Shown here one piece after another: positions 4,874 through 62,104 of a DNA stretch of 64,000 nucleotides. A program made the translations under genes and the position numbers. The notes below the pieces were generated by a model that worked only from the letters and a program-made list of their open reading frames with translations, was not told where the DNA came from and did no database searches. The stretch comes from a virus. The stretch spans positions 62,001 through 126,000 of IMG/VR virus record IMGVR_UViG_3300008952_001422; one strand, 5' to 3'. How positions within the stretch are numbered: the stretch's first letter is position 1; the number at the start of each line of letters is the position of its first letter.

Positions 4874-5134
4874 ATGTCAATTGACGCAATTAATGAAGAA
4901 GAAAAAGCAAAACTCATTCAATTAGTAAATGAAGGTTGTCTAGTTCTACAAGAAGTTGAAGACCTCAAAGGTGGATTACGTGATACAGTAAGAGCAATTG
5001 CTGAAGAAATCGATGTAAAACCAGCAGTTTTAAACAAGGCAATCTCGGTTGCACATAAGGCCAAACTATCTGAGATACGTGCTGACTTTGAAGATATGGA
5101 AACAATTCTGGAAACTGTAGGGCGTACTCTTTGA
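4874..5134 (+). CDS. dsbA: DsbA-like double-stranded DNA-binding protein
   Basis: An 86-residue acidic/helical protein with the conserved core GGLRDTVRAIAEEIDVKPAV and LNKAISVAHK. This is the pattern of the small DsbA-like proteins that accompany DNA polymerase in T4-like marine phages. In T4, DsbA binds double-stranded DNA near late promoters. The ribosome site is AGGAG at 4863. Its stop overlaps the TTG start of the polymerase gene (TTGA), implying translational coupling. It lies under the early promoter at 4793. Assignment is by length, position and pattern. Confidence 0.65.
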   Translation: MSIDAINEEEKAKLIQLVNEGCLVLQEVEDLKGGLRDTVRAIAEEIDVKPAVLNKAISVAHKAKLSEIRADFEDMETILETVGRTL

Positions 5135-7938
5135 GTTATGTAGATGCATTCTACAACAAAGATAAGGACATTGTTCAAGTTGTAGAACGAATAAAAGGCA
5201 AAAGAGTTTATAATGATTATCCAGCGTGGCGCACTTTCTATGTGAAAGACCCACGCGGTGACCATATAAGTATTCATGGTGACAAAGTACGACAAATCAA
5301 ATGTAAACGTCTTAAAGACTTACACAAAGAACGAAAAATAAATACTGGTAAAACATTTTACGAAAGTGATATTAAACCAGAAGTTCGTTGTTTGAGTGAG
5401 AATTATAATGGAATTGATTCACCTACTCTAAATACTGCCTTTTTCGATATTGAAACAGACTTCGATGCAAGTCGAGGGTTTGCTGACCCTAGTGACCCAT
5501 TCATGCCAATCACGGCAATCACAGTTCATCTTCAATGGTTAGACTTACTTGTAACACTTGTTATCCCACCCAAGTCAATGAGAAGTGGTGAAGGTCTTAA
5601 AGAGGCAGAAAGAATTTGTGAGCAATTTGAGAATACTCAATTATATCTAAGTGAAGTAGATATGCTTAATGACTTTTTAGATGTCATTGAAGATGCTGAT
5701 GTGTTGGCTGGTTGGAACTCTGAAGGTTATGATATTCCATACATTGTGAATAGAATAACTGAAGTACTAAGTAAATCACATACACGCAAGTTGTGTCTAT
5801 GGGAATTAGAACCTCAGAAACGTAGAATAGTAAAATATGGTAAAGAACAAGAAACATTTGACTTGTTCGGAAGAATTCACTTAGACTACCTAGAATTATA
5901 TCGTAAGTACACATATCACGAAATGCACTCATACGCACTTGATACAATTGGTGAACACGAAGTAGGTGAACAAAAAGTTGCATATGACGGCACACTAGAC
6001 CAGTTATACAACAATGACTTCTATAAGTTTGTTGAATATAACAGACAAGACGTTGCACTACTTGATAAGATTGATAAGAAACTAAGATTTATCGAACTGG
6101 CAAACGAGATTGCACACGATAATACAGTAAACATCAAAACAACAATGGGTGCAGTTGCAGTTACAGAACAAGCAATCATCAACGAAGCACATAGACGTGG
6201 TATGGTTGTTCCAGATAGAAAGAAAAAAGTTTGGTCAGATGATGATGTAGAATTATCAGATGAAGAATTACACGAAGTAGAAATGCAAAAGGCCGCTGGT
6301 GCTTTTGTGGCAGTTCCCAAAGCAGGATTACAGAGATGGGTAGCAGGTATTGATATCAACTCTCTTTATCCATCAGTTATTCGTGCGATGAATATGTCAC
6401 CAGAAACAATTGCAGGACAACTAAGACCTGACTTGACTGAAAAGATGATTGGTGATAGAATATCAGAGGGTAGAAAAACAGGTGCTAAAACATTTGGTTC
6501 ATCTCAAGCATGGGATGAAACATTTAGTACAGAAGAATTCCGTTTAGTTAATGAGAGGGACAAAGCAAGTAATATTACATTAGTACTTGAAGATGCACCA
6601 TGGGAAGAAAACAAAACAACTCAAGCACTATCAGGTCAAGAGGCATATGATTTAATATACAATAGCGAATTGAACTGGACTCTTACTGCTAATGGTACTA
6701 TATTTAAACAAGATGTTCAAGGTATCATTCCTAGTTTGTTAGAACGTTGGTATGCTGAACGACAAGTAATGCAAGAGAACAAGAAACTTGCCATTAAAGA
6801 TGGTGATGCTGAAGAAATAGCATTTTGGGATAAACGACAACTTGTTAAGAAGATTAACTTAAACTCATTATATGGTGCGATTTTGAATCAAGGATGTCGT
6901 TTCTATGATAAACGTATTGGTCAGAGTACAACTCTAACAGGTCGTTGTATAACAAGACACATGGGTGCAAAGTGTAATGAAGTAATCGTTGGCGAATATG
7001 ATTATAAGGGTCCAGCAGTTATATATGGTGACACAGACTCTATCTATTATTCAATGTATCCTGTTTACAAACAAGAGATTGATGACGGTAGTATTGAATG
7101 GGATAAAGAAAAAGTATTAATGTTATATGATGAAGTTGCCAATCAAGTCAACGCAAGTTTTCCAGATTTTATGAAAACGTTCTTTAATGTTCCTAGAAAA
7201 GAAGGTGAGATTATTGTTGCTGGCCGTGAGAATTGTTCGATTACAGGTATTTTTATTAAAAAGAAACGATACGCATTGCTTATGTATGATGACGATGGTG
7301 TTCGCCGTGATGTAGATGGTTCACCTGGTAAAGTCAAAGTAATGGGAATTGACATAAAGAGAAGTGATACTCCACCATATATGCAAGATTTTCTAAGTGA
7401 AGTTCTACTGAAAGTGTTAACTGATGGCACACGTGAAGAAGTCATTGAGATGGTTAAAGAGTTTAAGAAAGAGTTTAGAACAAAACCAGGTTGGGAAAAA
7501 GGTTCTCAAACTCGTGTAAACAATCTAACTTCATACAAGAACAGAGTGAACGCCGCAAAGAAGGCAATGGCAAGAGATTTGAATAATGGTGGTGATAAAT
7601 CTAAAAGAGATAAAGTCCACTTACCTGGACATGTCGCCGCATCATTGAATTGGAATATGTTACGAGAACTTAATCAAGACCGATATGCAGTAGAAATTGT
7701 AGATGGTATGAAGACGATTGTTTGTAAACTAAAGCCAAACACGTTCAAGTTGAAAAGTGTTGCATATCCTGTAGATGCGACTAAAATACCAGAATGGTTT
7801 CAAAAACTTCCATTTGACCATGAGTTGATGGAACAAACTATTGTTGATAAGAAATTAGACAACCTAATTGGAGTATTAAATTGGGATATGAGTGATGCAA
7901 ATGCATCAGAAACTTTTGATAATCTTTTCGATTTGTAA
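5131..7938 (+). CDS. 43: Family B DNA polymerase (T4 gp43 type)
   Basis: Replicative polymerase with 3'-5' exonuclease. Exo I is FDIETDF (about residue 105), Exo II is NSEGYDIPYI (about 195), and Exo III is YNRQDVALLD (about 300). Polymerase motif A is DINSLYPSVI (about 407), motif B KINLNSLYGA (about 573) and motif C YGDTDS (about 631). All catalytic Asp residues are present. The last residues, FDNLFDL, form a hydrophobic C-terminal tail like the clamp-binding tail of RB69 gp43. The start is TTG, overlapping the upstream stop; no better in-frame ATG precedes the N-terminal domain. The length of 935 aa is normal for the family and the gene is not split. Confidence 0.97.
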   Translation: MSYVDAFYNKDKDIVQVVERIKGKRVYNDYPAWRTFYVKDPRGDHISIHGDKVRQIKCKRLKDLHKERKINTGKTFYESDIKPEVRCLSENYNGIDSPTLNTAFFDIETDFDASRGFADPSDPFMPITAITVHLQWLDLLVTLVIPPKSMRSGEGLKEAERICEQFENTQLYLSEVDMLNDFLDVIEDADVLAGWNSEGYDIPYIVNRITEVLSKSHTRKLCLWELEPQKRRIVKYGKEQETFDLFGRIHLDYLELYRKYTYHEMHSYALDTIGEHEVGEQKVAYDGTLDQLYNNDFYKFVEYNRQDVALLDKIDKKLRFIELANEIAHDNTVNIKTTMGAVAVTEQAIINEAHRRGMVVPDRKKKVWSDDDVELSDEELHEVEMQKAAGAFVAVPKAGLQRWVAGIDINSLYPSVIRAMNMSPETIAGQLRPDLTEKMIGDRISEGRKTGAKTFGSSQAWDETFSTEEFRLVNERDKASNITLVLEDAPWEENKTTQALSGQEAYDLIYNSELNWTLTANGTIFKQDVQGIIPSLLERWYAERQVMQENKKLAIKDGDAEEIAFWDKRQLVKKINLNSLYGAILNQGCRFYDKRIGQSTTLTGRCITRHMGAKCNEVIVGEYDYKGPAVIYGDTDSIYYSMYPVYKQEIDDGSIEWDKEKVLMLYDEVANQVNASFPDFMKTFFNVPRKEGEIIVAGRENCSITGIFIKKKRYALLMYDDDGVRRDVDGSPGKVKVMGIDIKRSDTPPYMQDFLSEVLLKVLTDGTREEVIEMVKEFKKEFRTKPGWEKGSQTRVNNLTSYKNRVNAAKKAMARDLNNGGDKSKRDKVHLPGHVAASLNWNMLRELNQDRYAVEIVDGMKTIVCKLKPNTFKLKSVAYPVDATKIPEWFQKLPFDHELMEQTIVDKKLDNLIGVLNWDMSDANASETFDNLFDL

Positions 7939-8549
7939 TGACTAAGACTTACACAGATTTAGTAGGAAGACGAAGCAGTAATGCAATATCAGATGAATGC
8001 TATACTCCTTCTGACCAAGTTCTTCCATTATTAGAATATCTAAACAAAGACAATACTTACTATGAAGCAACTAGCGGAAAGTCTAATTTAATTGTAGACG
8101 GCTTCAATAAAAATGGATATAAGATAGTGCCAAGTAATGATAAAGATTTCTTTGACTGTGGTCCAGATGATGTATATGATGGAATAATAACTAATCCACC
8201 ATATAGTATTAAAGATAAGTTTATAGAACATTGTTATTCTCTTGGTAAACCATTTGCGTTACTATTACCAGTAACAAGTTTTCAAGGTGGAAAACGAGGT
8301 AAGATGTTTATTAAACATGGTATGTCTACACTTGTGTATAACAATCGGGTAGATTTCACAGGAACTGGTAATCCTACATTTGGAAATGCTTGGTTTATGT
8401 GGGGTATTATACCATCTAATACTATCTATTGGGTCGATAATCCAAAGAATGGTCAACTTCAATATACAACTGAAGATAAAAAGCCATGGGTACTACGAAA
8501 AAGAAAAGATAATACAGCAAAATCATTTGATAATCTATTCGATTTATAG
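7938..8549 (+). CDS. NPPY-motif DNA methyltransferase-like protein with clamp-binding tail
   Basis: This 203-residue protein has a catalytic-type NPPYSIK motif (about residue 93), as in adenine-N6/cytosine-N4 methyltransferases. The candidate SAM-binding segment, EATSGKSNLI near residue 40, departs from the usual FxGxG, so activity is uncertain. The C terminus ends SFDNLFDL, almost the same as the polymerase tail ETFDNLFDL, and the clamp gene follows. The start ATG overlaps the polymerase stop by one base (TAATG). It could modify new DNA while riding on the clamp, or be a non-catalytic replisome protein. There is no target-recognition domain, which favours a short or relaxed target. Confidence 0.75.
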   Translation: MTKTYTDLVGRRSSNAISDECYTPSDQVLPLLEYLNKDNTYYEATSGKSNLIVDGFNKNGYKIVPSNDKDFFDCGPDDVYDGIITNPPYSIKDKFIEHCYSLGKPFALLLPVTSFQGGKRGKMFIKHGMSTLVYNNRVDFTGTGNPTFGNAWFMWGIIPSNTIYWVDNPKNGQLQYTTEDKKPWVLRKRKDNTAKSFDNLFDL

Positions 8550-8550
8550 G

Positions 8551-8580
8551 TTGACAAGTGGTTCTAAATTATGTTATAAT
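8551..8580 (+). promoter_or_regulatory. Sigma70-type promoter, extended -10, for sliding clamp
   Basis: TTGACA (8551-8556), an 18-base spacer and TATAAT (8575-8580) preceded by TGt. Both hexamers are perfect. An AGGAG ribosome site follows before the ATG at 8611. Confidence 0.85.
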
Positions 8581-8610
8581 TAATTTAATAATTAAATAAA
8601 AGGAGTAAAA

Positions 8611-9366
8611 ATGCGTGATATTTTAAAGGATATTGTCAAACACACACATTCGCTAGGTATTATCCAAGCGGCTAAAGTGACAACAGATAAAGAGGGAACT
8701 ACAATCGATGCAATGGACGAAGACCGTACTGTTGTATTGAGTGGTAAATTACATGCACCAGTTCCTGAATTCGAAGGCAAGTTCGGTCTAGGAAGATTAA
8801 GTGTCTTAAGTGGATTACTTGACTATACTGGCGAAGACAAAGAAGGCAATCCTATTGTAGCAGATGTTAAAGTAGGAACAGAATCACGAAATGGTGAAGA
8901 TGTTACTACTGAACTTAACTTCTCTATGCCAGGTGGTTTTGATAGTTCATATCGAGTAATCGTAAGTGAATTAGTAGATGCACAAATCAAAACAGCAACT
9001 TTTAGAGGTGCGGCATGGAATGTAGAAATTATGCCAACACAAAAAGCAATCAAAGACTTACAATACTTTGCAGGTATTCTAGGTCAATTTGACCCACTAC
9101 TTACTGCGAGAACAGTGAATGGTAATTTAGTTTTCTATATCGGTGATAGTTCAACAGATAAAGTAGAACTTCCATTTGCAAACAATGTAGAGGGTGAACT
9201 AAAGACAGGTTGGAGTTTTCCATTGTCAACAGTTCTAACTATTCTTAGACTTAGTGATACAAGTACTATGAACATGAAGTTATCCGACCAAGGTGCGATG
9301 ATGATTTCAGTTGATAGTGGTTTAGGTTTATACGAGTACATTCTACCAGCAAAAGCCGGCAACTAA
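8611..9366 (+). CDS. 45: DNA polymerase sliding clamp (T4 gp45 type)
   Basis: This 251-residue protein has the gp45-like opening: a helix, then a strand, then the GKFGLGRLSVLSGLLDY segment that forms a clamp strand and helix. A second half follows with repeated two-domain logic and ends LGLYEYILPAK. It is slightly longer than T4 gp45. It trims replication and late transcription in T4 by encircling DNA; here it would tether the polymerase and probably the NPPY protein through their shared tails. It has its own perfect promoter, fitting its high demand. The late promoters in the window imply that it also serves as a transcription activator. Confidence 0.88.
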   Translation: MRDILKDIVKHTHSLGIIQAAKVTTDKEGTTIDAMDEDRTVVLSGKLHAPVPEFEGKFGLGRLSVLSGLLDYTGEDKEGNPIVADVKVGTESRNGEDVTTELNFSMPGGFDSSYRVIVSELVDAQIKTATFRGAAWNVEIMPTQKAIKDLQYFAGILGQFDPLLTARTVNGNLVFYIGDSSTDKVELPFANNVEGELKTGWSFPLSTVLTILRLSDTSTMNMKLSDQGAMMISVDSGLGLYEYILPAKAGN

Positions 9367-10234: not shown

Positions 10235-11323
10235 ATGAATAACTATATTTTTACTAGTGAGAGTGTAAGTGACGGTCATCCTGACAAGGTTGCAGACCAA
10301 ATTAGTGATGCATTAGTTGATGCAGGACTTAAAAATGGTGATGAAAAGACACGGATAGCGGTCGAAACACTCGTAACTACAAATCACGTAACGTTAGCAG
10401 GTGAAGTAAAGAACTTTAACGTGAGCAAAGAAGATGTTGAGCAAATTGTTCGTAATAAAGTTAAAGATATCGGATATGAACAAGGAGGCTTTCATTGGGA
10501 TAAACTAAAGATTTATAATGAGATTCACACACAATCTGGTGATATCGCACTAGGAACCGATGATTTCGGCGCTGGAGACCAAGGATTAATGTTTGGTTAT
10601 GCGTGTAACGACAACGAAGCAATGATGCCAGCACCTATATATTACGCACACGAAATACTTAAAGACCTCAAAGAAAAACGCAAAGGTGGTTATGAATATA
10701 TGTTGCCAGATGCAAAATCACAAGTAAGTTTGCAATATGAAGGTGGTAAAGTAAAACGTGTTGACCAGATTGTAATATCACATCAACATACAAAAGGATT
10801 TGGACATAGTATTAAAATGCCTTGTAGAGATTCAGCAGAAAAAATACTAAAAGGTTTGATAGATGATGAAACTGTATGGTATATCAATCCTACGGGCAAG
10901 TTTGAGATTGGTGGACCAGATGGAGATGCCGGAGTAACAGGTAGAAAGATTATTGTTGATACATACGGCGGTTATGCACCTCATGGTGGCGGTGCATTCT
11001 CAGGAAAAGACCCTACGAAAGTAGATAGAAGTGCCTCTTATATGGCACGATGGTTAGCAAAGAATGTTGTAGCAGATAACATGGCAGATTGGTGTCAAAT
11101 TCAATTGAGTTATGCTATCGGTGTTAAAGAGCCAACTAGTATCTATGTAGATAGTGATGGACACAATCGTAGTATTGAAAAGTTTATTGCTGAGAATATT
11201 GATTTAACACCAAAAGGGATTATTGATAGATTTGATTTATTCAACTTTCATCAATATAGTAAGAATTGTGTATACGGACATTTTGGTGACAAAGATGTTC
11301 CATGGGAGAAAATAGGATGGTAA
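10235..11323 (+). CDS. metK: S-adenosylmethionine synthetase
   Basis: Makes S-adenosylmethionine from methionine and ATP. It carries the MetK signatures TSESVSDGHPDKVADQISDA near the N terminus, GAGDQGLMFGYACN (about residue 108), GGPDGDAGVTGRK (about 228) and GGGAFSGKDPTKVDRSASY (about 248). The 362-residue length from ATG 10235 is slightly shorter than the bacterial norm. An upstream in-frame start lies inside the promoter, so 10235 is preferred. Downstream genes follow with a one-base gap. The window encodes at least eleven radical SAM proteins and several methyltransferase-like proteins that consume SAM, which gives a rationale for a viral copy. Confidence 0.96.
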   Translation: MNNYIFTSESVSDGHPDKVADQISDALVDAGLKNGDEKTRIAVETLVTTNHVTLAGEVKNFNVSKEDVEQIVRNKVKDIGYEQGGFHWDKLKIYNEIHTQSGDIALGTDDFGAGDQGLMFGYACNDNEAMMPAPIYYAHEILKDLKEKRKGGYEYMLPDAKSQVSLQYEGGKVKRVDQIVISHQHTKGFGHSIKMPCRDSAEKILKGLIDDETVWYINPTGKFEIGGPDGDAGVTGRKIIVDTYGGYAPHGGGAFSGKDPTKVDRSASYMARWLAKNVVADNMADWCQIQLSYAIGVKEPTSIYVDSDGHNRSIEKFIAENIDLTPKGIIDRFDLFNFHQYSKNCVYGHFGDKDVPWEKIGW

Positions 11324-26417: not shown

Positions 26418-26780
26418 ATGATGAATGACCCAGACTTTGATAAGTTAATGGATGAAATATTTCCAATGAGTATTCCAACAGAATACGTAGAAAAAATACT
26501 AGTAACATTAGCAAGTGGTCAAATGATTGAAATGTCAGGTGATGAATTATTACATCCACTGCCACTTGCTGATGATTTAAATTGGGAAAGACTCGTACAC
26601 AGATTTGATAAGATTGCTGATGTTCAAGTAAAGATAAATGTTACAAAGATTAAATCTGATGTTTCTAAAAATGTAAAAACAATTCTAGGCGCCCATTTTA
26701 AAAGTAATAATACAGATACCGGAACTGTCAATGGAGAAATAGAAGATGAGAACAAGGACATATTGACCGGCAATGATTAA
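26418..26780 (+). CDS. Acidic protein of unknown function
   Basis: 120 residues (119 from ATG 26421). Leading acidic helix DPDFDKLMDEIFPM, a central SGQMIEMSGDELLHPLP segment and an Asp/Asn-rich tail. The tail overlaps the start of the DHFR gene by eight bases. No family recognised; similar sequences occur in marine T4-like phages as far as I recall. Confidence 0.55.
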   Translation: MMNDPDFDKLMDEIFPMSIPTEYVEKILVTLASGQMIEMSGDELLHPLPLADDLNWERLVHRFDKIADVQVKINVTKIKSDVSKNVKTILGAHFKSNNTDTGTVNGEIEDENKDILTGND

Positions 26781-27336
26781 CATGATACTGGCTGCCGATG
26801 AATTGGGCAGTATCGGATTCAAAAACGGCCTTCCCTGGCCAAAACTCAAAGAAGACTTACACTGGTTTAAACAACTCACTGAAATGAATGTAGTAGTTAT
26901 GGGTTCCAATACTTGGAAAAGTCTTGGTGTACACGCACCATTAACATCCAGATACAATTACGTAATAACTTCATCACATAAGAAAGATGATTTTCCTGGT
27001 TGTTTTGGAGTTTGTAATCCAAGTGAAGACTCAGTTGAGATTATTCTTAAGTCTTTAGACTTTGGTCATCCTGACAGAGATATATTTGTTATTGGTGGAA
27101 AGACTTTATTTGATGAAGCCTATGAGTATTGCGATGCTATATTTTTGACTAGAGTACACGACCAATATCCCTCAGATACTAAAGTTGATATAGAAAAGTA
27201 CATTGACGATTTTGTTATACTCAATCAATTGTATAGTCAAGGCACCCAACATATTCCTGATATAACGTTTGAAACCTATTTAAGAGCAGGTGAAGAAAAC
27301 GAGGAAATTGAATGGGATGACGATATACCATTCTAA
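26773..27336 (+). CDS. Dihydrofolate reductase
   Basis: Reduces dihydrofolate to tetrahydrofolate with NADPH. INMILAADELGSIGFKNGLPWP is the family N terminus, DLHWFKQLT carries the substrate-binding acid (Asp), and VVMGSNTWKSLG the NADPH site. Also PLTSRYNYVITSS and FVIGGKTLFDEAYEYCD. 187 aa, slightly long owing to an acidic C-terminal tail. ThyX is encoded in the same genome at 42314-43006; ThyX itself does not produce dihydrofolate. Begins within the end of the previous gene. Confidence 0.93.
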   Translation: MINMILAADELGSIGFKNGLPWPKLKEDLHWFKQLTEMNVVVMGSNTWKSLGVHAPLTSRYNYVITSSHKKDDFPGCFGVCNPSEDSVEIILKSLDFGHPDRDIFVIGGKTLFDEAYEYCDAIFLTRVHDQYPSDTKVDIEKYIDDFVILNQLYSQGTQHIPDITFETYLRAGEENEEIEWDDDIPF

Positions 27337-36729: not shown

Positions 36730-38018
36730 TGTAGTTCTCCTGCTTCGTATCTCTGTTGTATATATTTAAGTGAGAAATCTGGGTCTTTCATCATCTTATC
36801 TACTTCAGTATATCCCTCTAATTCAGTACATAATTTATAAAGAATATCTTTTTCTTTCATTGCTTGTACTAACTCAGGATTATAATCTTCTATATTAGAA
36901 TCATAATATTCTGTATCTAATAGATGAGTTTTTCTCAAAAATAAATACCATGCATATTCTTTTTCTTCTTGTGGTACTCTATTCTTTTTTAGTATTTTAA
37001 TAGCCCTATCTATTTTTACTTGTGCGGCTGGTAAACGTTCTTTGCTTTTCCATTCATCTAATATCCATTGCTCGTACCAATCAGGTGCTAAGTGTGGACA
37101 ATACTCGCCAGACTCTACCATCTTAAAAGACACAGACCAACTTGGATGGTTCTTAGCATAGTAATCCATATCATCTGCAAATCCATTTAGATTTAATGTA
37201 CTGTATGTCGAATGTATATGTCCCTTTTCTATATTCTTTAATTGTGATAGATATTCTTCATAGATGTCTAATGATTCTTTCCAACCTGGTGAACCCCAAC
37301 GTTGATATGAATTATAATCATTACATCCATCCACTGAACCAGTCAATATGATTTTTCTGAAACGATTTAGTTTCTCAATCATTACATCATCTAATCTCTT
37401 TGTAGTGTTTGTAATTATTTCTAGTAACACATCTTCTACTTTACATTTTTCAATCAACCAATCTATCAACTTTGGAAAGTTTGGTGAGAAGAATGGTTCT
37501 CCACCTAATACTTTAATCTTTGTTAGATGTTGCCAATCTACATTCAATGATTTTAGATATTCAATTCTTTGTTTTGGTATTGTTGTAGGTTGTCTACCTC
37601 GCATTCCTTTTTCATTTAATAGAAAGTCATCTCGATAATATAACTTACTTGAAAACAAAGAGTCACACATCTTACATTGTAGATTACATAGGTTGTCTAA
37701 ACTCAATTCTATAGAACGTAACTTGTCAAAGTCTTCAGTTAATTTTGCTTGTTCTAATTTAAAATGTACATTATTGGCAGCCCATCGCATTGACTCATTA
37801 CCTTCAGAATAACATAGAGAACATTCTTTCGATTTCTTTCCCTCTAACATGTTCTTTCTTAGCCATCTATACTTATCATCGAATGGCTTCATTGCATCTT
37901 CTTCTATATGGTCTTCATCATTGCCTACTGTAAATCTACAGCAAGGTCTGGCAACATTCTTCATAGAAACTGCCATATGATTCCATGCTAACATACATAC
38001 TACACCGTTATCTTTCAT
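36726..38018 (-). CDS. Radical SAM enzyme with N-terminal twitch-like Cys domain
   Basis: 430 residues. N-terminal Cys8, Cys26/27, Cys66 and Cys69 (VCMLAWNH, RPCCRF, CSLC). Core CNLQCKMC (Cys111, 115, 118), KVLGGEPFFSPNF (about 167) and GSVDGCNDYNSYQRWG. The C-terminal part is longer than in its neighbours. ATGA overlap upstream and downstream. Substrate unknown. Confidence 0.9.
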   Translation of the reverse strand: MKDNGVVCMLAWNHMAVSMKNVARPCCRFTVGNDEDHIEEDAMKPFDDKYRWLRKNMLEGKKSKECSLCYSEGNESMRWAANNVHFKLEQAKLTEDFDKLRSIELSLDNLCNLQCKMCDSLFSSKLYYRDDFLLNEKGMRGRQPTTIPKQRIEYLKSLNVDWQHLTKIKVLGGEPFFSPNFPKLIDWLIEKCKVEDVLLEIITNTTKRLDDVMIEKLNRFRKIILTGSVDGCNDYNSYQRWGSPGWKESLDIYEEYLSQLKNIEKGHIHSTYSTLNLNGFADDMDYYAKNHPSWSVSFKMVESGEYCPHLAPDWYEQWILDEWKSKERLPAAQVKIDRAIKILKKNRVPQEEKEYAWYLFLRKTHLLDTEYYDSNIEDYNPELVQAMKEKDILYKLCTELEGYTEVDKMMKDPDFSLKYIQQRYEAGELQ

Positions 38019-39193
38019 ATCATCATTACCTTAAATCGGTCATCTAAATCTCTAACGTTTTCACTTCTATAATTGTCATATTTATTTTGCAATGCAACAA
38101 ATTCCTTTCGGGCATATTCAGTATAAGGAGTATCTCTTAAAATTTTTATTCCATTTTCGGCAGTATTAACTTTACTTCTTGTTGCCCAGTCATCTCTAGA
38201 TTTGGGTAGTTCTTTGATATAGTTTTCTAAGTATTTTATTGACTTCTGTTTCAAGTCATTGGGTATACAAGCAATTGACATTCCAGTTGGCACCCATACT
38301 TGATTAATAATTACCTCTATACCAATATCCATAAGTTCATTCCACCATTTGTCTAGTGTTACCATATTAATAGCAGTAGCAGTACATTGAATAGTAACAC
38401 CACAATTAGTTGTAGGGTCATCTGATATTTTCTTATATACTAACATGTTTTGTTTAACGGTATTCCATTTGATACTGCTTTTTCTTTGAAACTCTTGTGT
38501 TGGTCCTGATGCATCTACTGATAGAATAACCTGTAGGCCTGCACCGCTACAAAATTTCATTAAAGTTTTTATCCATTTGTCAGAGGCGTTAGTTGCATTA
38601 GTTGTTACAAGAATTGGGATATTTGAATAAGTATCAGCAACATAGTTCATAAATTTTCTTATTTTTAAATCAATTGATGGCTCGCCACCTAGAATAGATA
38701 TTTCTTCACAATGAGTCAAATCTAAATCATATGCATCTGATGTATCTAAGTGTTTTATAAAGCCTTCCTCATGTGTTTTGATATGTTTTCCAAATTGTGC
38801 CCCAGCGGCTACAATTTCTTCTTCAAGTAGTGATGAAGATTGTGGACCACACATTCTACACATCATGTTGCATTTATTACCTGCTCTATAGTCTAATCGT
38901 ATTATTTTATTTAAACCAGGTGCTTCATAATCAACATCGTTATCCCATTGTTCGTAATACTTTCTTCTAGAGTGTCCACCAATTTTCTCGTTGTGTATAC
39001 ATTCTATACAACCTGGGTCAGTTCTGTCACGATACATCATCTCTTTGAATCTTTTTAAGTAATCAGATTTAATATATTCTTCATATGTCCCCCAAAATGT
39101 ATCATTTTTCCACTCACAACAAGGCTGACATCCTTGAGTGGCTTCATATGCTAATCCTAACCATGGAGCATTACAGTAAGGTTTATCACGCAT
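38015..39193 (-). CDS. Radical SAM enzyme, tandem paralogue A
   Basis: 392 residues. N-terminal Cys7, Cys22/25/26, Cys62, Cys65; core CNMMCRMC (Cys108, 112, 115); ISILGGEPSIDLKIRKF and LSVDASGPTQEFQRKSS. The first 12 residues (MRDKPYCNAPWL) and the block IKSDYLKxFKEMMY are nearly the same as in the next gene upstream, so the two are a tandem duplication. Overlaps that gene by eight bases. Confidence 0.9.
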   Translation of the reverse strand: MRDKPYCNAPWLGLAYEATQGCQPCCEWKNDTFWGTYEEYIKSDYLKRFKEMMYRDRTDPGCIECIHNEKIGGHSRRKYYEQWDNDVDYEAPGLNKIIRLDYRAGNKCNMMCRMCGPQSSSLLEEEIVAAGAQFGKHIKTHEEGFIKHLDTSDAYDLDLTHCEEISILGGEPSIDLKIRKFMNYVADTYSNIPILVTTNATNASDKWIKTLMKFCSGAGLQVILSVDASGPTQEFQRKSSIKWNTVKQNMLVYKKISDDPTTNCGVTIQCTATAINMVTLDKWWNELMDIGIEVIINQVWVPTGMSIACIPNDLKQKSIKYLENYIKELPKSRDDWATRSKVNTAENGIKILRDTPYTEYARKEFVALQNKYDNYRSENVRDLDDRFKVMMI

Positions 39194-40292
39194 TTAGTAT
39201 CTCCTCAAATCTGTAATCTAAGTCATTTATATTTTCATTTCTCCAGTCGTCCATTTTCTTAACTTCTCTTTTGAAACTTTCATTATACTTCTTGTCATAT
39301 CTATTCATTTTAAGCAATTTAATTGCTTCTTTTGCCTCCATCTTTTGTCTGAAGATTTTGGATTCTTTTGATATCCAATCCTCTAGCCATTGTATTTGGA
39401 CATCTTTATATTTGTCTGGAATTGCTTTAAGACTATATGAGATTGGATATACAACAGCAGAAGAAGTCAGAGGTATATCTAACTCCATAAGTTCTTCCCA
39501 CCATGTATCTAACATAGTGAAATTTATTGACGATGCTGTGATTTGAATTTTTATTTGATTTTCAAACTCTTTTTTATACTTTATTATATTCTTTTTTAAT
39601 TCTTTCCAATCACTTCCTTTTCGTTGAAAGTCATTAGCATCTCCAGTAGCATCAATTGATAACCAAATGGTCAGTTTCTTTAACTGCTTTAATGAATCAA
39701 ACCATTTATCAGAAGCATTTGTTCCATTGGTTGTTACAAATACGTGAGTATCAAAGTCTTTAACATGGTCTATCCATCTTCTCACTTCTAAATCGATAGA
39801 TGGTTCTCCACCTAATATTGAAAGTTCTTCACATTTAGATAAATCAATGTCGTATGCATCACTCATATCTTCTACTCTGAATATTGGATTTGCATTGTTG
39901 AATTTAATTTCTTCTTCTTCACGCATAGATGAAGCCTCAGGATGACACATTCTACACATTAGATTGCACTTGTTTCCTGCTCTGAAATCAAACTTGACTA
40001 ATTTGTTATCGTTTGATTTATAATTAACCTTATGTCTTAGCATTCTTAATCTTGTTGAGTCGTTGTTTATTTTTTCGCCATCAATACATACTTTACAACC
40101 TTTACTCATATCATCTTCGTACATCATCTCTTTAAAATTCTTCAAGTAATCAGATTTTATATAATCTGTATATCTACCCTTAAATGTGGAATCATAAGTG
40201 GCATCATTATATTCACAACATGGCTTACATCCTACTGAACTTTCATATGCTAATCCTATCCATGGTGCATTGCAATATGGCTTATCACGCAT
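39186..40292 (-). CDS. Radical SAM enzyme, tandem paralogue B
   Basis: 368 residues. N-terminal Cys7, Cys22/25/26, Cys66, Cys69; core CNLMCRMC (Cys109, 113, 116); LSILGGEPSIDLEVRRW and LSIDATGDANDFQRKGS. Shares MRDKPYCNAPWIGLAYE and the C-terminal W-R-x-E-N-x-x-D-L-D-x-R-F block with paralogue A. The sequences have diverged enough to suggest distinct substrates. It overlaps both neighbours by eight bases. Confidence 0.9.
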   Translation of the reverse strand: MRDKPYCNAPWIGLAYESSVGCKPCCEYNDATYDSTFKGRYTDYIKSDYLKNFKEMMYEDDMSKGCKVCIDGEKINNDSTRLRMLRHKVNYKSNDNKLVKFDFRAGNKCNLMCRMCHPEASSMREEEEIKFNNANPIFRVEDMSDAYDIDLSKCEELSILGGEPSIDLEVRRWIDHVKDFDTHVFVTTNGTNASDKWFDSLKQLKKLTIWLSIDATGDANDFQRKGSDWKELKKNIIKYKKEFENQIKIQITASSINFTMLDTWWEELMELDIPLTSSAVVYPISYSLKAIPDKYKDVQIQWLEDWISKESKIFRQKMEAKEAIKLLKMNRYDKKYNESFKREVKKMDDWRNENINDLDYRFEEILNA

Positions 40293-61568: not shown

Positions 61569-62104
61569 TATAGTTCCTTAAGTACATTCTCTGGTGTTGT
61601 TTCGCCGTATGGGTCTAAATCTTCAGGTGTACTATCGGGTTCAATAAACATTTTTGTAATTAAACCATCATCAACAATCATTGCGTAACGTTTACTACGC
61701 ATATTAAAGCCTACAGCGGACATATCAGTTAACATACCCATTTCTGTAGTAAATAAACCGTTACCATCTGGTAATACTTTAACATTCTTAAGATTATTAG
61801 CATCACGCCACGCATTCATAACAAATGAATCATTTACCGAACAACAATAGATATCATCTACTCCCTTGTCATAAAACTTCTGTGCGTTTTCTTCAAATCC
61901 AGGTAGTTGATGCGTTGAACAGGTGGGCGTAAATGCTCCTGGTAAACTAAACACTACCACTTTTTTATTTGAGAAGATTTCATCAGTAGATATTTCTCCC
62001 CATATTGATGGGTTTATTTCACAAGCATTTGGTTGTCCCAAATCACTTTCAACCCTTACTTTAAATGCAACTGTTGGAATAACAGTCTTTTCTAACCATG
62101 TCAT
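61568..62104 (-). CDS. Peroxiredoxin (Prx5/thioredoxin-fold peroxidase)
   Basis: 178 residues. KKVVVFSLPGAFTPTCSTHQ holds the peroxidatic Cys in the Prx5 context (PGAFTPTCS). VNDSFVMNAWRDAN and GMLTDMSAVGFNMRSKRYAM are the family blocks. A two-Cys resolving site is not obvious (CCSV near 87). Detoxifies H2O2, which would protect oxygen-sensitive Fe-S enzymes in an infected cell. Not linked to an obvious reductase, though rubredoxin is two genes upstream. Confidence 0.92.
   Translation of the reverse strand: MTWLEKTVIPTVAFKVRVESDLGQPNACEINPSIWGEISTDEIFSNKKVVVFSLPGAFTPTCSTHQLPGFEENAQKFYDKGVDDIYCCSVNDSFVMNAWRDANNLKNVKVLPDGNGLFTTEMGMLTDMSAVGFNMRSKRYAMIVDDGLITKMFIEPDSTPEDLDPYGETTPENVLKEL

Follow-up and report, generated by a model that had tools for sequence, protein, structure and literature searches.

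Organization of the polymerase, methyltransferase and clamp genes

The DNA analysed here is a stretch of 64,000 nt (referred to as the window) that corresponds to positions 62,001–126,000 of the 127,031-bp IMG/VR record IMGVR_UViG_3300008952_001422, derived from a marine phage. The features of the locus, in window coordinates, are the following:

5131..7938, + strand: family B DNA polymerase (T4 gp43-like), 935 aa as called from a TTG start (Pfam DNA_pol_B, 4e-33; PHROG 262, 6e-189; RB69 gp43 by sequence)
7915..7935, + strand: C-terminal tail FDNLFDL of the polymerase, a putative clamp-binding peptide by its position and character, which resemble those of the RB69/T4 gp43 tail (PMC3012046, PMC2988020)
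7938..8549, + strand: small methyltransferase-like protein, 203 aa (PHROG 799 DNA methyltransferase, 1.7e-30; best Foldseek match M.TaqI, E 3e-4)
8193..8204, + strand: NPPY catalytic motif, residues 86–89 (N86 P87 P88 Y89), invariant in 30 aligned homologues
8445..8525, + strand: variable linker, predicted disordered (AlphaFold2 pLDDT < 50 for residues 161–203)
8526..8546, + strand: C-terminal tail FDNLFDL of the methyltransferase, read from the sequence (short helix 197–202 in the AlphaFold2 model)
8551..8580, + strand: sigma-70-like promoter of the clamp gene, TTGACA-18-TATAAT, beginning 2 nt past the methyltransferase stop codon and outside the tail codons
8611..9366, + strand: PCNA/gp45-type sliding clamp, 251 aa (PHROG 12062, unnamed, 6e-42; Foldseek PCNA, E 6e-9)
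10235..11323, + strand: S-adenosylmethionine (SAM) synthetase (three Pfam S-AdoMet_synt domains, down to 1.5e-57)

The polymerase and methyltransferase ORFs overlap as TAATG and end in different stop codons (TAA vs. TAG, respectively). The polymerase C-terminus reads ...ASETFDNLFDL and that of the methyltransferase ...NTAKSFDNLFDL (last eight residues SFDNLFDL), with the seven tail residues being identical. The initial annotation had described this shared tail (TFDNLFDL/SFDNLFDL), with the clamp gene (8611–9366) next and near-identical coding DNA for both tails, all of which was confirmed, the FDNLFDL codons agreeing at 19 of 21 nt. When the ORFs of the whole 127,031-bp record were searched for this C-terminal tail, only the polymerase and the methyltransferase were found to bear it. 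The SAM synthetase encoded ca. 1.7 kb downstream is a possible source of the methyl donor.

For the clamp, every top Foldseek match of the low-confidence structural model was a PCNA-type clamp, and VIA-align yielded Z-scores of ca. 14 to PCNA and 9-1-1 clamps, so that the call as a PCNA/gp45-type clamp holds at the level of this predicted model.

Origin of the shared tail

Clamp-binding C-termini are known for gp43, gp55, and gp33 of T4/RB69 (PMC2988020, PMC3012046, PMC9690074), and those of T4 are interchangeable and placed on a variable linker (PMC2988020). Like these, the tails in the window are short hydrophobic-acidic peptides situated at the C-terminus or close to it and common to the polymerase and another protein of one phage; the linker before them varies, and the clamp is of the PCNA/gp45 type. 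Their sequence nevertheless differs (FDNLFDL vs. SLDFLFG and SLDFLYEAND at the ends of T4 gp43 and gp55, respectively), and the known bearers are polymerase and transcription factors, whereas here they are DNA-modifying enzymes.

A chance match between the peptides was excluded by family counts, since the polymerase-type tail occurred in 5 of 183 protein families of related clamp loci, against 0.27 expected from internal positions. At the nucleotide level, however, the 19/21 match is by itself no evidence of recent copying, because two random encodings generated according to the codon usage of the phage agreed at 16.8 nt on average and reached 19 in 13% of draws; nucleotide identity alone thus lends no support to a recent duplication of the tail DNA within the window.

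The 3′ end of the methyltransferase gene proved homologous to the polymerase 3′ end in relatives that lack the methyltransferase. In examples of such relatives (L066–L070, L072–L074, L076–L077, L084, L086, L097, and L098), the 3′-terminal 24 nt of the polymerase gene (tail plus stop codon) equal those of the window methyltransferase gene and are followed by a promoter matching that of the window at 30–36 of 40 nt. Because of this homology, part of the tail identity between methyltransferase and polymerase is, judging from these sequences, a matter of descent in the window lineage. The same junctions would be expected if the methyltransferase gene had come or gone between polymerase and clamp by recombination via a tail-coding repeat, leaving the tail as a functionless remnant of the polymerase gene, and the existence of close relatives that lost, or never had, the tail would fit such a scar as well.

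Conservation of the tail among phages with a window-type clamp

The polymerase tail was kept in all 50 distinct related polymerases. In the tailed methyltransferase homologues encoded beside window-type clamps (15 distinct sequences), F-D-x-L-F was fixed while the linker varied in sequence and length, linker plus tail measuring 18–34 aa among relatives. Deeper lineages retained F, L, and F over a changing linker, even though their tail DNA matched that of their own polymerase at only 5–16 of 21 nt, which argues against a mere remnant of the polymerase gene. Against a tether, in turn, stand five relatives (L071, L078, L082, L085, and L088) whose methyltransferase is 83% identical and located at the same gene position but lacks the tail, and a phage with a window-type clamp (L019) whose tailless methyltransferase is encoded elsewhere. 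Since the methyltransferase gene is moreover missing from many relatives, the tether would be dispensable.

Conservation of the tail might also be mimicked by the clamp promoter, as its –35 box TTGACA encodes Phe-Asp when read in frame. This box indeed lies within the tail codons in L007, L009, L010, L013, L015, and L128, and some tailless methyltransferases end in IDIG or IDID, likewise from TTGACA read in frame. However, the –35 box starts past the stop codon in the window and in L127–L142, the tails of T4-like phages are located upstream of the box, and the L-F-D-L part is not encoded by it. Promoter position hence refutes a promoter-imposed tail for the window, and we regard this explanation in general as barely credible.

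Two further proteins of related loci were scrutinized. A nuclease identity of the tailed 186- to 205-aa proteins encoded between methyltransferase and clamp was suggested by a motif seen by eye and found no database support. A 520-aa protein encoded downstream of the clamp carries an invariant DSGG followed by [YF]Q, but a TGT/DpdA identity was not confirmed, as searches of Pfam, PHROG, NCBIfam, and PDB yielded no match and hhalign to the DpdA of phage 9g gave 0.4%.

A different tail on methyltransferases and other modification enzymes of T4-like phages

Methyltransferase homologues in T4-like marine phages end in DLSAFFS/NLSEFFS, with L-x-x-F-[FM] being kept in those from T4-like phages with a gp45-type clamp (10 distinct sequences), while 140 of the 144 polymerases of this group end in TLEDFFG or close variants; both tails and the clamp co-occur on a single contig (L154). 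As far as these sequences go, the methyltransferase tail type follows the phage's own polymerase and replisome. Since the clade with the T4-type tail forms a single branch (100/99) amid tailless homologues, more than one origin of the tail is probable. In the initial annotation, absence of the tail from homologues encoded away from the clamp was to count, next to a lack of binding by the tail peptide, against the methyltransferase riding the clamp. The homologues did not sort in this simple way: the T4-like ones away from the clamp carry the tail of the other replisome, and some close relatives beside the clamp are tailless.

In the T4-like loci, the tail was borne by 52 of 53 Mom family members, all 58 SPPY methyltransferases, 38 of 51 TET/JBP oxygenases, 17 of 29 TAGT glycosyltransferases, and 4 of 5 PP-loop ATPases. 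When the 103 families with four or more members were compared, a tail on half of the members or more was confined to the polymerase, three families of modification enzymes, the PP-loop protein, and a single family of unknown function. In the cultured Methylophilales phage Melnitz, two proteins alone bear the strict tail, namely the polymerase and one of the Mom family (Pfam 7e-49). Counter to a tether, the methyltransferases of the T4-like phages L020 and P-TIM68 are tailless, as are the Mom-like protein of PAC2, the asparagine-synthase-like protein of S-B05, and the TAGT of PS2. A search for Mom in the window's own record gave no match, but neither did the control genomes in the same search.

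That the tail of T4-like homologues is of another type and encoded at a distance from the polymerase gene, and that Mom, TET, TAGT, SPPY methyltransferase, and DpdA (see below) are tailed as well, is difficult to reconcile with a recombination scar at the polymerase–clamp junction, which we consider improbable as the explanation of the tail.

Fold and putative function of the methyltransferase

The AlphaFold2 model of the methyltransferase has a class I methyltransferase fold, with the N6-adenine DNA methyltransferase M.TaqI as best Foldseek match. By VIA, M.TaqI (Z 10.3, rmsd 3.7–3.8 Å over ca. 140 residues) was tied with KsgA/ErmC; the rRNA methyltransferases KsgA and Erm reached Z-scores of up to 10.9, and the model fits rRNA adenine methyltransferases as well as M.TaqI. 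The SAM motif I region is a conserved YYEATSGKS in which the usual glycines are altered, and the 203 aa leave little room for a target-recognition domain, a region modelled at low confidence.

The rRNA methyltransferase scores, the altered motif I, and a clamp site shared with the polymerase would also suit a clamp binder that does not modify DNA, be it a regulator competing with the polymerase, a late-transcription adaptor resembling gp33/gp55 (which bear such tails in T4), or an RNA methyltransferase. Competition with the polymerase for the clamp, as raised in the initial annotation, is possible because both proteins would use the same clamp site. Nevertheless, the NPPY motif and a large part of the core do not vary among the 30 homologues, tailless ones included, and the recognised tailed families other than the methyltransferase are mostly DNA-modifying enzymes, making a role apart from DNA modification quite unlikely.

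In the explanation that we find likely, the seven C-terminal residues of the methyltransferase constitute a clamp-binding peptide like those of the T4/RB69 DNA polymerase, T4 gp55, and gp33; together with the flexible linker, they would hold this small SAM-dependent enzyme on the sliding clamp of the phage, where it would modify phage DNA at the replication fork or just behind it. That the methyltransferase rides the clamp, as initially proposed, is well supported by sequence comparison (i.e., a tail kept on a variable, disordered linker, its type switching with polymerase and clamp, and its recurrence on unrelated DNA-modifying enzymes), although the identity of its tail to that of the polymerase is partly due to descent. 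From this pattern we infer that the protein binds the clamp, is catalytically active, and takes DNA as its substrate during replication, and that the resulting marks may protect against host restriction.

Known and proposed clamp tethering in other phage and cellular systems

Precedents exist for a modification enzyme on a clamp. The T4 alpha-glucosyltransferase, likewise a phage DNA-modifying enzyme bound to the phage's sliding clamp, binds gp45 (Sommer et al. 2004, re-tested in PMC13216743), but it ends in KEQFDIITK, which does not evidently copy the polymerase tail, and clamp binding is not the main cause of its share of modification (PMC13216743), both of which weigh against a tether. DNMT1–PCNA (PMC9690074) similarly has a DNA methyltransferase tethered to a replication clamp, although DNMT1 is a eukaryotic C5 maintenance enzyme and an unrelated protein. 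The spread of polymerase-type tails over many families of modification enzymes seems to be novel.

The presence on many modifiers of tails matching the phage's own clamp suggests that phage DNA is marked during copying. More broadly, and with somewhat better than even confidence, phages with a clamp gene of their own may often link DNA modification to replication through a C-terminal tail on the modifying enzymes (methyltransferases, Mom, TET/JBP oxygenases, TAGT glycosyltransferases, and DpdA) that reproduces the clamp-binding motif used by the respective replisome. Such tails would be gained, lost or switched upon transfer of the enzymes among phages whose clamps are of the gp45/PCNA or the beta type. 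If true, such a tether would place modifying enzymes at the site of phage DNA synthesis and favour DNA bearing the phage clamp over host DNA, which bears on how phages mark their DNA fast and completely ahead of host restriction. The case of the T4 alpha-glucosyltransferase would then become a possible general strategy over three clamp types, and the tail a sequence rule to spot unrecognised modification enzymes.

The DpdA proteins of phage 9g and relatives (PMC6884629, where a search of the main text gave no mention of a clamp) are likewise DNA modifiers encoded near the phage clamp gene, but this clamp is of the bacterial beta type. Their C-termini read LQDLFDE, IQELF, MELF, or QRLF, and the six DpdA proteins encoded beside a phage beta clamp end in LF or LFDE, whereas a DpdA from a mycobacteriophage, for which the stretch read contains no clamp gene (n = 1), has no LF-type ending. 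In Vibrio phage 2.275.O, the only ORFs found to end in LF[DG]W encode the polymerase and a TGT-like protein.

Polymerase and methyltransferase share a C-terminal tail next to the clamp gene

The virus record is 127,031 bp long, and its bases 62001–126000 (the window) contain a polymerase gene, a methyltransferase-like gene and a clamp gene arranged head to tail:

5131–7938: family B polymerase, C-terminus TFDNLFDL
7938–8549: methyltransferase-like protein (203 aa), overlapping the polymerase gene as TAATG, C-terminus SFDNLFDL
8611–9366: clamp (251 aa)

The matching tails of the first two proteins, with the clamp gene next to them, had been sighted in the initial annotation and were borne out. 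The search that it had proposed, i.e., a scan of ORF C-termini throughout the 127,031-bp record, revealed the FDNLFDL-type tail on the polymerase and the methyltransferase and at no further ORF C-terminus.

The polymerase matched Pfam DNA_pol_B and RB69 gp43. No sequence match to the clamp was found in Pfam or PDB; the top matches of its AlphaFold2 model (poor, pLDDT 54) were all PCNA-type clamps (Foldseek E 6e-9, VIA-align Z ~14), and some of its phage homologues are annotated as clamps. The methyltransferase-like protein matched PHROG 799 (1.7e-30), its NPPY motif was invariant among homologues, and a SAM synthetase gene is situated downstream of the locus. Its AlphaFold2 model combines a core at residues ~20–130 (block pLDDT 71–93) with predicted disorder over residues 161–203, including a short helix within the tail. 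M.TaqI was the best Foldseek match to this core and rRNA adenine methyltransferases scored equally in VIA-align, so that by fold the substrate may be either DNA or RNA.

Conservation and origin of the tail

Within a sample of 80 clamp loci from the window's lineage, the tail was kept in 50/50 distinct related polymerases, while the methyltransferases located between polymerase and clamp occurred in a tailed and a tailless state. The tailed enzymes (ending SFDNLFDL, PLNNLFDL, SFDKLFKL, AFDNFFDL, TFDSLFDL, SVFDDLFE, SQFDILFE, SQFNILFE or CIFNDLFE) had near-zero entropy at the F, L and F columns, with a linker varying in length and letters. The nearest relatives of the window methyltransferase, 83% identical (related loci L071, L078, L082, L085 and L088), were tailless.

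In relatives without the methyltransferase, the polymerase gene ends in the same 24 nt that make up the tail and stop codon of the window methyltransferase, and the same clamp promoter comes next (30–36/40 nt matching); the window polymerase tail differs from those 24 nt at 3/24 positions. The two window tails thus form a direct repeat that brackets the methyltransferase gene. Either recombination between the repeats removed the gene from these relatives, or a tail was acquired from a polymerase 3′ end by recombination. Since nearly all more distant relatives with both locus ends have the gene in place, gene loss is tentatively favored.

Gene content varied among related loci. One or two additional genes (including one of ~260–281 aa) separate polymerase from methyltransferase in L101–L119, and a ~780–910-aa gene, most copies ending TAGxxWTF, separates methyltransferase from clamp in L127, L131–L135 and L139–L143. 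Two kinds of 186–205-aa protein were also seen between the latter two genes (one in L128 6406–6966 and L013 6615–7175; the other in L134 6356–6964 and L120 6352–6969); their C-termini are likewise of the FDxLF type (TIDSLFEV, MFDNMFEL, TFDKHFNM), and both kinds resemble PD-(D/E)xK nucleases by eye, with no database support. In L007, L009, L010, L013, L015 and L128, the promoter that follows the methyltransferase gene has its –35 box within the enzyme's tail codons, so that the same DNA would serve as promoter and putative binding peptide.

Tails in T4-like phages match the polymerase of the same replisome

Homologues of the window methyltransferase were present in marine T4-like phages that possess gp45, gp44 and an SbcC-like gene. 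There they end SDLTAFFS, SDLSAFFS, NLSEFFS, ADLSQFFS, DLTEFMV and similar after a variable linker, and the polymerases end TTLEDFFG or close variants. Methyltransferase, gp45, gp44 and polymerase are all encoded on one contig, L154. In a tree built from the methyltransferase core, leaving out linker and tail, the T4-like tail formed a single clade (support 100/99) beside tailless homologues, and the three tail states required 5 changes versus 21 with shuffled labels. The tail is absent from the homologue of the T7-like podophage Lau218.

Other enzymes of T4-like loci (families named from Pfam) carried tails of the polymerase's type as well: Mom-family proteins (52/53 distinct C-termini), an SPPY methyltransferase (58/58; weak Pfam N6_N4_Mtase), TET/JBP oxygenases (38/51), TAGT glycosyltransferases (17/29) and a PP-loop ATPase (4/5). 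A stricter pattern (base rate 0.0004 at internal positions) was applied to 330 loci, which had been collected around the polymerase and these enzymes themselves and hence are no random genome sample. Of the 103 families there with four or more members, those with a tail in at least half of the members were the polymerase, the SPPY methyltransferase, Mom, TAGT, the PP-loop protein plus an unknown family of 294-aa proteins. Among the 198 ORFs of the cultured Methylophilales phage Melnitz, the strict tail was confined to the polymerase (TTLEDFFG) and a Mom-family protein (TATLEGFF); the phage's TET/JBP protein has the C-terminus GNLNDFLGE.

The 294-aa family (L350 2760–3644; LxxF[FM] tail in 5/5 members, no Pfam match) is a candidate DNA-modifying enzyme. 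In Melnitz (L235 4010–6194), a C5-cytosine methyltransferase gene lies immediately upstream of the TET/JBP oxygenase gene, an arrangement that would suit a cytosine hypermodification pathway.

C-termini of DpdA and of a further protein encoded near clamp genes

Q-L-x-L-F-like motifs are used by bacterial beta-clamp ligands. The DpdA gene of phage 9g, whose product was experimentally shown to put 7-deazaguanines in DNA (PMC6884629), adjoins a beta-type clamp gene and encodes the C-terminus LQDLFDE. With a clamp gene at or near, DpdA proteins end IQELF (NP1, R7M), EQRLF (RHph_I36), VMELF (WildeMaa) and QMELF (VPv64, an unannotated record in which the neighbor was called a clamp by eye only). One mycobacteriophage DpdA ends PKGTP, with no clamp gene within the stretch examined.

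A ~513–596-aa protein encoded downstream of the clamp in the wider clamp lineage of the window frequently has the C-terminus GVADLFG, SVDALFG or similar; its C-terminus in Vibrio phage 2.275.O is NNNDLFGW, and that of the adjoining polymerase NNTDLFDW. It carries a TGT-like DSGG[YF]Q motif, and a search for TGT/DpdA homology gave no confirmation. The more general pattern, modification enzymes of three clamp systems bearing a putative clamp tail of their own phage's type, was not found in the open-access literature searched and is provisionally considered new.

Clamp tethering as the likely role of the tail

C-termini of this kind attach T4/RB69 polymerase, gp55 and gp33 to the clamp; they are interchangeable, and the gp55 linker can vary freely (PMC2988020, PMC3012046, PMC9690074). 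By analogy, the tail would hold the window methyltransferase on the clamp, where it may act on clamp-encircled DNA. T4 alpha-glucosyltransferase is an established case of a DNA-modifying enzyme that binds its phage's clamp; its share of modification is not set by clamp binding (PMC13216743), so a tether need not imply a large effect. DNMT1–PCNA is a eukaryotic parallel.

The proposal of the initial annotation that the methyltransferase rides the clamp is the best reading of tail conservation and replisome matching, although the tailless near relatives count against it. Several enzymes from phages that have a clamp or a T4-like polymerase likewise lack the tail (L019, L020, P-TIM68, PAC2 Mom-like, S-B05, PS2), so that it is an advantage at most and no requirement.

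Further observations in the window

A dihydrofolate reductase (26773–27336, + strand; Pfam 5.9e-29) has a C-terminus, EWDDDIPF, that resembles the tip of bacterial single-strand-binding protein; a 74%-identical relative (L240 from 1501) ends FDFDDDIPF after a changed linker. Finally, two neighboring genes at 38015–40292 (– strand) have near-identical starts (MRDKPYCNAPW[LI]GLA) and seem to be tandem paralogues.
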